From an uncultured Gammaproteobacteria bacterium (GTDB lineage Bacteria; Pseudomonadota; Gammaproteobacteria; Eutrophobiales; Eutrophobiaceae), in contig CALSRS010000002.1 in the NCBI GenBank assembly GCA_943788815.1, forward strand, positions 307,062 to 371,061: a stretch of DNA of 64,000 bases. Direction: 5' to 3'. Numbering within the stretch: position 1 is the first letter of the stretch; each line of letters begins with the position of its first letter. Both the position numbers and the translations under genes were made by a program. The notes beneath the pieces are model-generated. The model ran no database searches and was not told where the DNA came from. It worked only from the letters and a program-made list of their open reading frames with translations. Below, piece after piece: positions 12,778-34,830 of the stretch.

Positions 12778-15700
12778 TTACTCGCCATAAACCCACTCCC
12801 GCCAGCCTTTCAACAACGGAAAATATAACCCCAGCTTAATAGGCCTGCTATCCATGGCCTGCATTAACTGACCATATTTCTGTAACTGCTCTGCATAGCG
12901 TTCCTGTTCCCGGTCCAGGAAGACATCTATATCTGCACCTTTGTGTGGACTGGATTTGTAGTCTAGGATCCAGCGAGTACCATCCTTATCGATAAACGTT
13001 CTATCGATGATGGCAGTAATGAGCTGACCATCGTACATACCGGTAAGTGAGAGCTCATTGTCTTGTTCAGTGTGCTCTTTTGCAAGTATCCACTGGCCAC
13101 GATCGTCCTGCAACAGGTTTATTAATGCGGTTGATACGGTTCTAATACTCGTTTCTATTTCGCTGTCTTCTATCCCCGCCTGTTGTAATGTAGCTTTAAT
13201 TCTCTCTTTAATCGTTACGACACGCTTTTCATCCCAGTGATTAATGCCCTCTTGCGCCATCTGTTGTATGAAATGGTGAACGACAATTCCAATACGCTTG
13301 ATGGTCTCTCCTGCCCATTCGTATTCCACGTCTTCCATGTTTTTTTCAAGGTCGACTACTTCAATGGTTTTTGTGGTCAGTTCAGTTTCCAGTACATTTG
13401 GTCGCTGCCAGTTCTTCTTTAATCGCCAGATGGTTTGATTTATTTCTCCGATCGATTCATTATTAGATACTTGCGCTGATTCCATGGCATCTTCATATTT
13501 ATATTTCAAGATTGGCCACAACTGCCCCATTAATGACCTCTGGGGAACACTACACTCCCAGCTACCGGTCTTTTTATCCTGTTTTCGCTTTGCGCTCCCA
13601 AACAGGTGTAATGTTTGTTTTGCACGAGTGGTTGCGACATATAGCAACCTTTCTGCCTCGTGGATGTCTTTTTGTTTTTCCACTTGTTGGATATATTTAT
13701 AGATGGGGGTATGTTCCTCACCCGTCTGTCGTATTGCACCAATGAAAAGATCATGTCCACCAGCATCTGTGGGTCTTAACATCCACTTCATCAGTTCGGT
13801 ATTACCGTATCGAGGTGTTCTGCTTAATCCGGGGATGATCACATGGTCAAATTCCAGTCCCTTCGCCTTGTGCATGGTCATGACCTGCACCGCACCTTGA
13901 TTATTACCGCTGCCTGACTTGCCAAATAACTGTCCAACTTCATTTAATAATAACTTCAAATCATCGATCTCATGCCCCCGATCTAACTTGTCCAGTAATT
14001 CAAAAAAGAGGGTGATGTCTTCAAGGTCGGCTTCCGATTGCAAGGTAGCTGCGCCACCCAGGCGCGTCCATAAGGTCTCGATACTATGGCGGATAGACTG
14101 ACGGTGTCGGTCTTTATCTACGCTAATATATATCTCTGCCAGATGTTTAATACGTTGTTTGCTGAACGCATCACATTGTTTTAGTACCGAGGCATTGTTT
14201 AGTTGATCGATAATCAGCGCAGCATCAGTTCCGGAGACAATCAGGAGATGTTTGAGATCCAATCCGCACCAGGGGGCGCGTAGAACACTCAGCCAGGCAA
14301 TTCGATCAGCTGAATATAACCAGGCACGGGTCAGGGCAAGCAGATCCTGGATGGCTTGTTTTTCACCTAAGGTTTCGATATCGATGGCATGGAAAGGGAT
14401 GTTGGCTTCGCGTAATACCGGGATGATGTTTAAGAGGTGGTGGCGAGTTCTTACAAGAATAGCGATGTGGGATGACGAGACTTTTTTATCGTCATGCTGG
14501 TGAAAACCAGCATCCAATCCATTTATTGAGTCCGCTGCGCGGACACTTTGATTATTAGATTCTGGCTTTCGCCAGAATGACGGATTTAGACTGTGAATTA
14601 GCTCAACCACTCTCGATGCTTCAACCTCGCCTGTATCGTCAAATAGAGGATGGACACTAACACTCTGAAACTGACCTTCTCCGATAGTGGCAGTGGAAGG
14701 ATGAAAACTAACGGCACCTGTTGTCAGGTCGTCCTGTTCCGCTAGTACGGTTTCAAACGTATTATTCACCCAATTGACAATACCGGTATTAGAACGGAAG
14801 TTACTGCTGAGGATGAGTGGCGTGAGAGGGACATTACCTAACTGCTGATGGTGGAAGGTATGAATAAAATTACCGACCTCGGCTTCTCGAAAACGATATA
14901 TGGACTGCATGGGGTCACCCACCAGAAACAAGGTGCGAGCGTCCTCACCAGTCCAACCACCGGTCATACGCATCAAGAGTTCATTTTGGTTGACTGAAAT
15001 GTCCTGGAATTCGTCCACCAGGATATGCTTGACCTGATAATCAAGGTACATGACGAGGTCCGTGGGTTCCTCATCAGTCCCAAGGGCGGTCACTGCCGAA
15101 TGGGCAATGCCGATAAAATCCTGCTGTCCTTGCTCATTAAAGACAAGCTGTAATTGCCTTGCCGCAAGGTTTAAAAGTATTGTTAAGGCGTTCACCACGT
15201 CCCATTCATCATCACTTATGTTTGCGAATGGGAGCATCCTGATGTCTGTTATCGCTTGTTCCAGCCCCTCAACCTGGCTGAACTGATCCAGCAGGACCTT
15301 CATCCGCTCCTTAAATTCATTACTGCCAGGTGGAAAGCCGATGTTCTTGTTTATCTGGATGCGCCAGGTGTTACTGGTTGTTAGGAGAAAGTCGGCAATA
15401 GCCCGCCATTGTTCCAGATTATCTGGAAGTGTATCGGGTAATATTGAAATGCCATCACATGACACAATGGTACTGTCAGGTTTGATATCAACAAGGTTGG
15501 CTGCGGCATAATTTAGTAAGGCACAAAGTTCATCATGGTGCTCACGGGGTATCTGGTTGATAAGCTTATGTAACTTTTCAGTGATTAAATTTTCAAGCAC
15601 ATCGATGAGATCATTCTTTTGATAACCCGCAAGGACATAACGCAACCACTGGTCACGTTTTTGTAACATATCCACCAACATTAATTTAAGGCGGTTAAGA

Positions 15701-16245
15701 TCATTATCCAGATGATCCAGTAAACGGGTGACCGCAACGCTCCACATCTGTCGTGTTTCCAGTTCCTGCAAAGTAGCATCTGCAGCCTTTTCATATAAGG
15801 GTTTGGCATCCTGAACAACCGCCTGCATGCCACCGATGCCAGACAAGAGTGGCATTTGACGAACGAGGGTGGCGCAAAAGGCATCGATAGTCTGGATTCG
15901 AAGGCGTCCAGGGTTTTCGAGTAATGACCAACCCTGTTTATCGTTTTGCGTCAATGCTTGTTTGGCCAGCACCAAAGTCTGAGCATCATACTCATTGTCA
16001 CCCTTCACATCCCGACCAGCCCGGTCCAGAGCATGCAATACTCTGCTCTGCATCTCGGCGGCCGCTTTGCGAGTAAAGGTAATAGCGATAATCTCTTCAG
16101 GATGATCAACCAGTGCAAGTAAGCGAAGGTAACGCTGGATAAGCAGTCCCGTCTTGCCCGAGCCCGCCGGTGCCTGGATGATAAAGGACTGTTCAGGATC
16201 CAGGGCCTGAAGACGTTGAGATTGATCTTGAATGATTTGGTCCAT
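12778..16245 (-). CDS. UvrD/AddA-like helicase with C-terminal PD-(D/E)XK nuclease domain
   Basis: Walker A APAGSGKTGLLIQRYL; VDEFQDISVNQNEL; LVGDPMQSIYRFREAEV; QVMTMHKAKGLEFDHVIIPG; nuclease motif AIIDRTFIDKDGTRWILDYKSS. Confidence 0.88.
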   Translation of the reverse strand: MDQIIQDQSQRLQALDPEQSFIIQAPAGSGKTGLLIQRYLRLLALVDHPEEIIAITFTRKAAAEMQSRVLHALDRAGRDVKGDNEYDAQTLVLAKQALTQNDKQGWSLLENPGRLRIQTIDAFCATLVRQMPLLSGIGGMQAVVQDAKPLYEKAADATLQELETRQMWSVAVTRLLDHLDNDLNRLKLMLVDMLQKRDQWLRYVLAGYQKNDLIDVLENLITEKLHKLINQIPREHHDELCALLNYAAANLVDIKPDSTIVSCDGISILPDTLPDNLEQWRAIADFLLTTSNTWRIQINKNIGFPPGSNEFKERMKVLLDQFSQVEGLEQAITDIRMLPFANISDDEWDVVNALTILLNLAARQLQLVFNEQGQQDFIGIAHSAVTALGTDEEPTDLVMYLDYQVKHILVDEFQDISVNQNELLMRMTGGWTGEDARTLFLVGDPMQSIYRFREAEVGNFIHTFHHQQLGNVPLTPLILSSNFRSNTGIVNWVNNTFETVLAEQDDLTTGAVSFHPSTATIGEGQFQSVSVHPLFDDTGEVEASRVVELIHSLNPSFWRKPESNNQSVRAADSINGLDAGFHQHDDKKVSSSHIAILVRTRHHLLNIIPVLREANIPFHAIDIETLGEKQAIQDLLALTRAWLYSADRIAWLSVLRAPWCGLDLKHLLIVSGTDAALIIDQLNNASVLKQCDAFSKQRIKHLAEIYISVDKDRHRQSIRHSIETLWTRLGGAATLQSEADLEDITLFFELLDKLDRGHEIDDLKLLLNEVGQLFGKSGSGNNQGAVQVMTMHKAKGLEFDHVIIPGLSRTPRYGNTELMKWMLRPTDAGGHDLFIGAIRQTGEEHTPIYKYIQQVEKQKDIHEAERLLYVATTRAKQTLHLFGSAKRKQDKKTGSWECSVPQRSLMGQLWPILKYKYEDAMESAQVSNNESIGEINQTIWRLKKNWQRPNVLETELTTKTIEVVDLEKNMEDVEYEWAGETIKRIGIVVHHFIQQMAQEGINHWDEKRVVTIKERIKATLQQAGIEDSEIETSIRTVSTALINLLQDDRGQWILAKEHTEQDNELSLTGMYDGQLITAIIDRTFIDKDGTRWILDYKSSPHKGADIDVFLDREQERYAEQLQKYGQLMQAMDSRPIKLGLYFPLLKGWREWVYGE
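14490..14582. repeat. Palindromic repeat element inserted in frame within the AddA-like CDS
   Basis: About 29-nt imperfect terminal inverted repeats (cgtcatgctggtgaaaaccagcatccaat / attagattctggctttcgccagaatgacg), central palindrome gtccgctgcgcggac (14530-14544); 93 nt = 31 codons; translated as PSFWRKPES...LDAGFHQHD. Confidence 0.85.
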
Positions 16246-16415: not shown

Positions 16416-19112
16416 TCATTCTTCGCCTCCTTGTTCTTCACCTTCTGTCATCATCCATTCTCGTTCATGGATGCGGCAAAGACTGTGCAAATCACAATAA
16501 CGGCAGGCAGATTCTGTGGGACTCACGATGGCATTGCCCTGAACATATTCTTCTGCCAAATCACGTAATACCTTTTCCCATTCTCGCAATTGAGCTTGCC
16601 ATTCTTCTCCTGATTCTCCCGCAGATTTCACACCCTCTATAAGATCAGCGGTTTCACCAATGCCGGCATAACCCAGCCTGCCTTTTTTTAATCCAGCAAA
16701 GGCCACCGCCTTGATATCGTTCTTTAGGGTTACCGCATACAGCGGCAATTGTGGTTCTTCTGGTCTGTCTCCTTCCCATTTATTCACCGAGATTTCACCC
16801 GTCTTGTAATCAATGAGCACTTGGCCACCATCGGGCAGTTCATCTACACGATCAATACGCATACGCAGGTTCAAGCCGTAAAAATTTACATCATGGCGTT
16901 TCTCAAGCTCATCAATGGTAAATTCGGGACGCGCTTTTTCAATGGACATCCATCGAGACACCAACGATGCCAACCTGCGTGTTTCCAGGCGACGAAATTC
17001 CGGAGTAAATGTCTCTGGTTTCATTTTTGCGTGCTTGCGAATAGCACCAGCTGCCATTGCGTTTATTAGTGATTCAAGTTTACTGCTCGCCATTTCTTTT
17101 ATTACTTCTGACGCACCTATTCTCTTCCATACATCATGCATCACCTCATGGACAAGTGACCCCCTCGTTGCCGGGTCAAGGCCAATATCCACATTGCTAA
17201 TCCCTTTTGCTTTAAGACGATGATGGGCAAAGGCACGAAACGGGCAGGCAGACTGATCTGCAAGGATGCTGGTACCACCCGATGCCTTTTTATCATTTGA
17301 AAACGGTGGTGCAGTAATATCGGTAAAGCCTTCCATGTCCCGTAACTGAAAAACCTGGTTGTTATAATCTTGCACCACTGGGTCTGGATCTTCCTGTATA
17401 TCTGCCAGATATTTTCTCAGTATAGGACTGGGACGATATTCCCTGTCACCTTCCTGTTTTGCATAACTGAAGATCAGATGACGGGCAGACTGAATCAGGG
17501 AATCAGTCTCAAGTTTGCACTGTTCCATCACTTGCTTGGCCTTACTGCCCGGGACACCCGCATTTTTCTGAAGGGTCAGCGGTATAAATGGATTGGCGAT
17601 TGCAGGGTATGGCCAGATGAGATCATGCATACCGGTAATCCGAACATAATCAAACGCCATACCAGAAACACCGGGCAGACCTGATATTTGTATAGACGTT
17701 TCAACTGTCTCAGGCTGAAAACTCCTGGCTTTCAAAATATCCTTTAGATTTGAAAAAGCCTTTGCAAAATCCCACTTTGATGACACCGTACCTAATACTG
17801 CCAATTCCATTAGTGCCTCTCCCCAGGTTTTTAAGGTCTGGTACTCAATACTGGTAAGTCTGCGTTCCCCGGGCCAGCCAAACTGTTTTAATAATTGATT
17901 GAACGATTCAGACCACTGCCTTGGGGACTGGGTACCTGGTAATTGTTTAATGCATTCCTGAAATTGGACTAAACTGTTTATAAAGTCTTTAGCCACAGGT
18001 ATGTATTGTTGATGTAACTCGATATGTTCCAACAATGTCTGTAGTCGCCAGGCGGGTTCACCTGTATCTCGTAAAGCAGCATGAAATAAAGCGCGATTTC
18101 CTGCTTCACTAGAAGCGCCCTTAATAAATGATGACCTTAATAGAAATTCCAACCTTCGCGATGGTATGCGGCCATACCCCAGTGAGAGTATCTCTATGGC
18201 AGCGTGAACCATAGGATAAACGAACAAAGAACGACCCGGAGCAATACTGTACTGCCGTTGAAACGTTCCAGGTTCGCGAATAGTCCAGTCCGGATGTAAC
18301 ACCGCATCAAATATGGCAGCAACGAATTCGCGTCGCTTATTTAGATCCGGGACAACAATGCCGATAGTTGCGCCGGGGTCATTAATGAGTAGTTGCCTTG
18401 CCCATATCGCCGCGGCCCTAAGTTCATCTTCTGGCTGAAAATAATTTTTATATGCTGTAGTTTCATTCCTGCCTTCGGATTTAAATATGATGACTTCATA
18501 TTTTTTACTTTTCAAATAATCAATAAATTTCACCTGCAGCTTGGTTAACTTGTCATAACCATAGACAACAATACCCTTTGTCTCCGGGGTGAAATTTGCC
18601 GCAATTAACTCGTTAATTAGAACACTCGAATCAATCCAGTTATTTTCTGACAGCTTTTTTTGGTATGCCTGCACCCAGGACTTAAAGGCAAGTGCATCAC
18701 TATTTAAAAATATGTCTTTTGGGAAGATTTCGATTCCCCATTCAAGGCTGGTGTCATAGGCTTCAATAGCGGTGTCGATAATCGTATCGACTTGCAATAT
18801 GTTCCTGGTATAAGAAGATGATTCAATAATGGATTGCCAAATTAGCCTGAGTTGAGAAGTGTTTAAAAGAACTTGTGATGAATGCTCCGGATTATGTTCC
18901 CAATATTTTCTAATCCATATCTGCCAGGTAAATACTTCCGGGGTACGCCAGACTTTCTTACCCTCCTCCAACATGGAGTTTGCATAAGCCATTTTCAGAG
19001 CATGTGCCTGACGCTGGCTAGCGGTAATAACCGCTAACCCCTGATCGATGTATTGGCGGAGGTGCTTGTTCATTATTGGTATTGTATTCGAAACCAACTG
19101 GAAATAATTCAC
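16416..19112 (-). CDS. AddB-like inactivated helicase / PD-(D/E)XK nuclease, probable Fe-S
   Basis: VLIDYKTGE nuclease motif; cysteine pattern ACPFRAF ... CRYCDLHSLC (C...CxxCx5C); no Walker A at N-terminus; adjacent to AddA-like gene. Confidence 0.8.
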   Translation of the reverse strand: MNYFQLVSNTIPIMNKHLRQYIDQGLAVITASQRQAHALKMAYANSMLEEGKKVWRTPEVFTWQIWIRKYWEHNPEHSSQVLLNTSQLRLIWQSIIESSSYTRNILQVDTIIDTAIEAYDTSLEWGIEIFPKDIFLNSDALAFKSWVQAYQKKLSENNWIDSSVLINELIAANFTPETKGIVVYGYDKLTKLQVKFIDYLKSKKYEVIIFKSEGRNETTAYKNYFQPEDELRAAAIWARQLLINDPGATIGIVVPDLNKRREFVAAIFDAVLHPDWTIREPGTFQRQYSIAPGRSLFVYPMVHAAIEILSLGYGRIPSRRLEFLLRSSFIKGASSEAGNRALFHAALRDTGEPAWRLQTLLEHIELHQQYIPVAKDFINSLVQFQECIKQLPGTQSPRQWSESFNQLLKQFGWPGERRLTSIEYQTLKTWGEALMELAVLGTVSSKWDFAKAFSNLKDILKARSFQPETVETSIQISGLPGVSGMAFDYVRITGMHDLIWPYPAIANPFIPLTLQKNAGVPGSKAKQVMEQCKLETDSLIQSARHLIFSYAKQEGDREYRPSPILRKYLADIQEDPDPVVQDYNNQVFQLRDMEGFTDITAPPFSNDKKASGGTSILADQSACPFRAFAHHRLKAKGISNVDIGLDPATRGSLVHEVMHDVWKRIGASEVIKEMASSKLESLINAMAAGAIRKHAKMKPETFTPEFRRLETRRLASLVSRWMSIEKARPEFTIDELEKRHDVNFYGLNLRMRIDRVDELPDGGQVLIDYKTGEISVNKWEGDRPEEPQLPLYAVTLKNDIKAVAFAGLKKGRLGYAGIGETADLIEGVKSAGESGEEWQAQLREWEKVLRDLAEEYVQGNAIVSPTESACRYCDLHSLCRIHEREWMMTEGEEQGGEE

Positions 19113-33575: not shown

Positions 33576-34769
33576 TTGATGGCTAATAGTAGTTTTGAAT
33601 CGTTTCACCCACCGCAAAGAATTCTGATGGGTCCAGGGCCATCCGATGTGAATCCGAGAATACTGGAAGCATTGTCCAGACCGACCATAGGGCATCTCGA
33701 CCCAAAATTTGTCCAGATGATGGATGAACTCAAAGACTTGTTGCGATATGCCTTTCAAACGTCAAATGAGGTAACCATACCCATTTCAGCACCTGGTTCT
33801 GCCGGCATGGAATCCTGTTTCACGAATCTTGTTGAGCCCGGTGATAAAGTCATCATATGTCGAAACGGTGTCTTCGGTAGCCGTATGCAGGAAAATGTAG
33901 AACGTTGTGGTGGTGTGGCAATAATGGTTGATGACCCGTGGGGACGTGCAGTCGATCTTAACAAGACAGAAGACGCGCTGAAGGCGCATCCAGATGCAAC
34001 CATACTTGCCTTTGTACATGCTGAAACATCCACTGGCGCTATGTCAGATGCCCAGGCACTCACAAAATTAGCCCATGAACATAACTGTATTACCATTGTT
34101 GATACTGTTACCTCACTAGGTGGAATCCCGCTTAATGTAGATGAATGGGAGTTGGATGCTGTTTATTCAGGCACTCAAAAATGTCTGTCCTGTATTCCAG
34201 GAATGTCACCCGTTACCTTTAATGACCGGGCAATGGAAAAAATCAAAAACCGTAAAACAAAATGCCAGTCATGGTTTTTGGATGTCAGTTTAATGCTGGG
34301 TTATTGGGACGGCGGGGGCAAACGTGCTTATCATCATACCGCGCCCATCAATCCTTTATACGGATTACATGAAGCACTCGTTATATTACATCAAGAGGGT
34401 CTTGAAGATGCATGGGCCCGCCATCGCTTACATCACAATGCACTAAAAGCAGGGCTTGAGGCACTGGGACTTGAATTGGTAGTACCAGAAGCAGAACGCC
34501 TGCCACAATTAAATGCGGTCAGTATTCCAGATGGCATAGAAGACGCCGTGGTCAGAAAAAATTTACTTGACGCCTATAATCTTGAAATTGGTGCAGGTCT
34601 AGGAGAGAGCGCCGGAAAATTATGGCGAATTGGTTTGATGGGACAATCAGCCAATCGAGGCAACGTGCTTTACTGTGTCAGCGCATTAGAGGCCGTACTG
34701 GGTGAACTAAGTTCCTCTATACCACGTGGCAAAGCCATGGATGCCGTAAGCGCGGTGTATAATAAATAA
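33576..34769 (+). CDS. Class V PLP aminotransferase (serine/alanine-glyoxylate type)
   Basis: MGPGPSDVNPRILEALSRPTIGHLDP; HAETSTGAM; AVYSGTQKCLSCIPGMSPVTF. Confidence 0.9.
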   Translation: MMANSSFESFHPPQRILMGPGPSDVNPRILEALSRPTIGHLDPKFVQMMDELKDLLRYAFQTSNEVTIPISAPGSAGMESCFTNLVEPGDKVIICRNGVFGSRMQENVERCGGVAIMVDDPWGRAVDLNKTEDALKAHPDATILAFVHAETSTGAMSDAQALTKLAHEHNCITIVDTVTSLGGIPLNVDEWELDAVYSGTQKCLSCIPGMSPVTFNDRAMEKIKNRKTKCQSWFLDVSLMLGYWDGGGKRAYHHTAPINPLYGLHEALVILHQEGLEDAWARHRLHHNALKAGLEALGLELVVPEAERLPQLNAVSIPDGIEDAVVRKNLLDAYNLEIGAGLGESAGKLWRIGLMGQSANRGNVLYCVSALEAVLGELSSSIPRGKAMDAVSAVYNK

Positions 34770-34772
34770 TGT

Positions 34773-34830
34773 AGTCCAAAATACGGACAAATTACTTAAC
34801 TGGATTCCCGCTTGCGCGAGAATGACGGGA
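34773..34830. repeat. Half-element of the palindromic repeat family, overlapping the 5' end of the EamA ORF
   Basis: agtccaaaatacggacaaattacttaactggattcccgcttgcgcgagaatgacggga. Confidence 0.7.

Follow-up and report, generated by a model that had tools for sequence, protein, structure and literature searches.

Among described systems, the CGTC REPs come closest to the element reported here. The CGTC-1 REPs and their HH dimers were defined by Di Nocera, De Gregorio and Rocco in 2013 (PMC3733652). A CGTC-1 unit comprises a CGTC tag, an 8-bp stem, a 4-nt loop and a CCA tail, and two units paired with their tags on the outside form an 'HH dimer'. CGTC REPs have no known transposase of their own, and most of those in the 2013 survey are alphaproteobacterial. 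In-frame intragenic copies, some of them in DNA-repair genes and encoding 20-30 amino acids, were already reported there. Intragenic REPs are often found in repair genes (uvrABCD, recBCD, polA and dnaE2), which are often the only REP-tagged genes of a species, and the authors speculated that repair-gene REPs may be selected. Two Rickettsia palindromic elements were included in the same classification, RPE-6 as CGTC-1 and RPE-4 as CGTC-4 (PMC3733652).

The window analysed here, a stretch of 64,000 nucleotides, contains a 1155-aa ORF whose product matches the AddA/RecB/UvrD families, with a UvrD helicase at the N-terminus and a PD-(D/E)XK nuclease at the C-terminus. The best solved matches to its predicted structure are AddA 4cei and 3u44. 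This gene carries a palindromic insert. The features of the locus, in window positions, are the following.

12778..16245, minus strand: host gene addA, 1155 aa, UvrD/Rep-type helicase with PD-(D/E)XK nuclease
14490..14582, minus strand: CGTC-1 REP HH dimer, whole element, 93 nt or 31 codons, AddA residues 555-585
14556..14582, minus strand: 5' REP unit CGTC-ATTCTGGC-GAAA-GCCAGAAT-CTA, perfect 8-bp stem and 4-nt loop
14517..14555, no strand: spacer of 39 nt separating the two REP units
14530..14544, no strand: central palindrome GTCCGC-GCA-GCGGAC within the spacer, perfect 6-bp stem and 3-nt loop
14490..14516, plus strand: 3' REP unit, inverted, CGTC-ATGCTGGT-GAAA-ACCAGCAT-CCA, perfect 8-bp stem and 4-nt loop
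16301..16327, minus strand: single CGTC REP in the addB-addA gap, covariance-model match
16416..19112, minus strand: addB-like partner gene, upstream of addA (TIGR03623, PDDEXK_1)

The insert consists of two inverted 27-nt hairpin units flanking the 39-nt spacer. An earlier note on this DNA had described it as exactly 93 nt (31 codons, no stop), with inverted termini of about 29 nt, each a hairpin, and a central palindrome, and this description is borne out. Read in the addA frame, the 93 nt are free of stops and encode PSFWRKPESNNQSVRAADSINGLDAGFHQHD (residues 555-585). The 29-nt arms (14490-14518 and 14554-14582) are 83% complementary and each forms a perfect 8-bp hairpin, and the palindrome lies within the spacer. 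Folded as single-stranded DNA, the insert strand reaches -22.6 kcal/mol vs -9.5 kcal/mol for shuffles (z = -5.4, 0/200).

The addA insert is a CGTC-1 REP dimer, in agreement with all the CGTC-1 features that were tested. Both units start with CGTC and exhibit an 8-bp stem starting with AT, with A-T as first and second pairs, and a 4-nt loop (ATTCTGGC/GAAA and ATGCTGGT/GAAA), followed by an unpaired tail near CCA (CTA and CCA, respectively). Like the published repeats, they form multicopy HH dimers with the tags outside, a structured spacer and possible heterodimers, and no dedicated transposase adjoins them. In contrast to most of the published hosts, the host here is a gammaproteobacterium; addA is not named in the main text of the survey, and neither lhr, the second host gene described below, nor the lineage of the window was found there (PMC3733652). 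The likeness to Rickettsia elements drawn in the earlier note is fair: RPE-6 and RPE-4 are both classed as CGTC REPs, and it is through this published classification that RPE-6 belongs to the same family (PMC3733652). In both cases palindromic repeats lie in frame within coding genes, here addA and lhr, although the Rickettsia elements occupy many host genes and only two were found here. The novelty that the note implied for a 'core recombination enzyme' does not hold, because the 2013 paper had already found recBCD genes, uvrD and polA to carry REPs; an in-frame REP in a repair gene is of the kind described there (PMC3733652). The GTAG REPs/REPINs with RAYT (PMC3116915) share the inverted pairs of short hairpin units dispersed over the genome, but the tag here is CGTC, not GTAG, and the RAYT association fails. 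The enterobacterial RU elements (PMC2759123) are also small mobile repeats with open frames inside genes, but they are longer (103-168 bp) and MITE-like.

The search for further copies proposed in the earlier note gave 55 BLAST matches in the genome, about a dozen of them near full length and the best at 85% identity. A covariance model built from 13 copies of the element found 90 distinct places in the 3.23-Mb, 3-contig genome, clustering near C1:410-480, 1,600-1,620 and 1,940-1,965 kb; the 38 strong places are mostly dimers of 90-107 nt. The single-unit pattern matched 51 times in the genome vs 0 for the reversed control. In the stretches read around matches, perfect units (CGTC, 8-bp stem, 4-nt loop) numbered 82 vs 0 for six permuted tags; of 117 units, 73 have the tail CCA and 17 the tail CTA. 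Both stems covary: in 208 cells of the 13-copy alignment, 19 were changed on both sides and none on one side. This lack of G-U intermediates, seen in 13 related copies only, suggests that the palindrome may be kept or corrected as DNA rather than under RNA constraint. Matches to the element occur in 25 of the 40 genomes searched, including that of the window, and are densest within the same genus. Nothing in Rfam came near the gathering score for the element, and the plasmid comparison gave no match.

With regard to a mobilising enzyme, no Y1 transposase above the family cut-off was found in the genome and none lies beside the repeats; a REP-rich sister genome likewise gave no Y1 transposase match. 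The sole RAYT-like ORF in the genome is weak, and the nearest copy is at a distance of about 90 kb or more. It encodes a protein of 182 aa (L061:1216-1764, at about 1198 kb of C1) that scores 35 bits against NF047646, for which the cut-off is 80. The protein has HIQ where, as we take it, an HUH motif would be expected; the ORF is probably degenerate, and its product may be inactive or domesticated. A RAYT-driven REPIN was rejected on the grounds of the wrong tag, the low score and the lack of an intact or neighbouring RAYT.

The claim that the segment interrupts a stretch contiguous in related helicases also stands: 28 of the 29 aligned AddA homologues lack the segment and run straight through. 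In these proteins a helix (EA..I...I..L) is followed by roughly 8 linker residues and then by IAILVR, and the window species has 31 more residues at this linker. Even the congeners G001, G003 and G004 have a segment-free AddA, though their genomes carry the repeat. The homologues without the repeat do not share the peptide, and other copies of the element exist, the two points on which the earlier note had staked its reading. Accidental palindromy of a native part of AddA is a virtually negligible prospect. The longer loop of B. subtilis AddA at this point could speak for it, but the empty sites in the alignment and the DNA identity of up to 85% with repeats elsewhere in the genome rule it out. 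The empty sites are too diverged at the loop for a target-site duplication, a feature of MITEs, to show.

The nearest AddA homologue, that of G002 (74% identical; MAG JAURPG010000068.1), has extra residues at the same point, which are different and decayed. Aligned with the spacer in the same orientation, this insert matches at 22 of 27 nt, and its alignment score of 34 exceeds the maximum of 26 among 1000 shuffles. Its 5' end is a long-loop REP variant known from other G002 copies, and its 3' unit is gone. One old insertion that was later remodelled appears to be the simpler reading of the site, and we infer that it is older than the split from G002. We consider it doubtful, with some real chance of being right, that the two species received independent insertions at a hot spot. 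The different 5' unit of G002, similar to other copies in that genome, would be expected from separate events, and in two Xanthomonas species recB carries different REPs at nearly the same site (PMC3733652); against this stand the identical position, a spacer match that beats all 1000 shuffles, and the first lhr site, at which the inserts of the window species and G002 align as peptides. New here is that this addA site is also occupied in the closest relative, by a decayed insert unlike that of the window species. The long-loop variant (loop of about CTAAAGGGCATAAACTTCA) recurs in G002, at L181, L182, L211 and in the addA insert of L032, and also seems to be present in lhr inserts.

The structure model that the earlier note had proposed places the insert in a predicted low-confidence loop. 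In the AlphaFold2 model of AddA, based on 27 sequences and with a mean pLDDT of 80.6, residues 561-589 have a pLDDT below 50 and lie between a helix (540-558) and a strand (594-598). This low value partly reflects the near-absence of aligned sequence over the insert, which lowers the confidence in any case. By homology with PcrA/UvrD, the loop would be the one preceding motif IV in the second RecA-like domain. Its length varies, and in B. subtilis AddA (3u44) it is longer by about 24 residues. The gene is under constraint between the window species and G002 (pN 0.152, pS 0.747, pS being saturated). The elements themselves are not adapted to coding, an idea that was rejected since open frames are not enriched over shuffles: the length is a multiple of 3 in 14 of the 38 strong dimers, and the mean number of open frames per strong dimer is 1.13 vs 1.52 in shuffles. 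In the addA copy, one of the six frames is open, and it is the frame in use.

Only 6 of the 90 places in the genome lie wholly within ORFs of at least 150 aa, 1 of them in addA and 5 in a second gene.

G000 C1:1957784-1962676 (L108:543-5435): lhr-type helicase, 1631 aa, with five REP-dimer matches

Lhr is a repair helicase. The five matches form three in-frame insert blocks, at about residues 104-172, 664-757 and 1060-1093, and the reading frame is intact through all the inserts of both addA and lhr. All three lhr sites are filled, with differing content, in the window species, G001 and G002; five other genera of the family have no insert at any of them. The gene is under constraint between the window species and G002 (dN 0.106, dS 0.73), and in a model of the first 800 residues blocks 1 and 2 fall in loops with a pLDDT below 50 (114-169 and 667-752). 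Over four congeneric genomes with 247 model places (90 in the window species and 157 in G001, G002 and G004), convincing intragenic copies are restricted to addA and lhr. The other in-ORF matches among the 157 places lie at probable misread starts or in short ORFs, apart from one chance match in hsdM. In several ORFs of G001 and G002 the match lies at the ORF start, ahead of the conserved domain, and these are probably misread starts. The hsdM-like gene of G001 was dropped as a third host because the match translates as YVLTPGRYVG, which we take to be ordinary HsdM sequence.

The confinement of intragenic copies to two repair helicases agrees with the published frequency of intragenic REPs in repair genes. 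As the sample is two genes and lhr is situated in a REP-dense stretch (C1:1944-1965 kb), we treat the repair bias as suggestive. With these copies addA and, more strikingly, lhr join the short list of repair genes with in-frame REPs, an independent, if small, repeat of a puzzling bias in a lineage not found in the 2013 survey (PMC3733652). What is new here is the limitation of intragenic copies in four congeners to addA and lhr, and the lhr sites shared between species with differing content. Most attention is due to the lhr companion and to the remodelling between species at fixed sites. Since the inserts at these lhr sites differ among three species and relatives with empty sites exist, it can be tested whether selection, tolerance or targeting is at work.

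A chance in-frame insertion, tolerated in a loop of AddA, is in our view the probable whole explanation, at roughly 85%. The CGTC-1 dimer would be a non-coding repeat that, having multiplied in this lineage, entered the length-variable surface loop before helicase motif IV, by chance in frame. Insertions that disrupted the gene were presumably lost, and this one would have been kept owing to a length divisible by three, a stop-free phase in use and a loop that tolerates extra residues. The result would be a disordered loop extension of 31 residues, translated in an otherwise intact and constrained AddA. This explanation builds on the observed structure and copy number of the element, the empty sites, the open frame and the intact, constrained gene; that the insert is translated and its peptide neutral, we infer. 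The earlier claim of a multicopy palindromic element inserted in frame in an AddA-family helicase-nuclease is carried by the copies and the empty sites. The word 'domesticated' goes too far: the peptide is predicted to be disordered, tolerance in a variable loop explains the insert, and the evidence favours tolerated insertion over functional domestication.

Neutral ageing and pure chance nevertheless leave some tension, since the stems in addA are perfect while the G002 insert has decayed, a contrast equally compatible with recent replacement or selection, and two repair helicases as the only hosts are poorly predicted by chance. Selection of the inserts in repair helicases for altered activity, examples being milder recombination, milder palindrome repair or a mutator effect, could account for the restriction of the convincing copies among 247 places to addA and lhr, for the three in-frame lhr sites common to three species and for the published repair-gene bias (PMC3733652). 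We regard it as unlikely, however, given that two genes are concerned, one of them in a REP-dense stretch, and that the inserts are predicted to be disordered and vary freely in sequence between species. The further idea that REP dimers are preferentially retained in repair helicases and remodelled in frame, so that the inserts would serve as evolving loops that tune recombination and repair enzymes, is more speculative again; the sites remodelled in place would be one addA site in two species and three lhr sites in three species. It is very improbable that the element acts as DNA or RNA, for example as a translation-slowing hairpin, in mRNA processing or as a gyrase or SbcCD target, with the peptide as a by-product. 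The stable hairpins would suit such a role, and the stem covariation points to a DNA palindrome in particular, but the frame is kept through all the inserts of both genes, and in G002 addA the palindrome is largely lost whereas the frame is retained. Tolerated chance insertion remains the reading that we prefer.

Two further matches were noted. In G001, the model also matches just upstream of addA (C12:19154-19217). In the window, the boundary between two ORFs holds a further CGTC REP unit at positions 34801-34827 (model match 34742-34827), in which one stem pair is mismatched.
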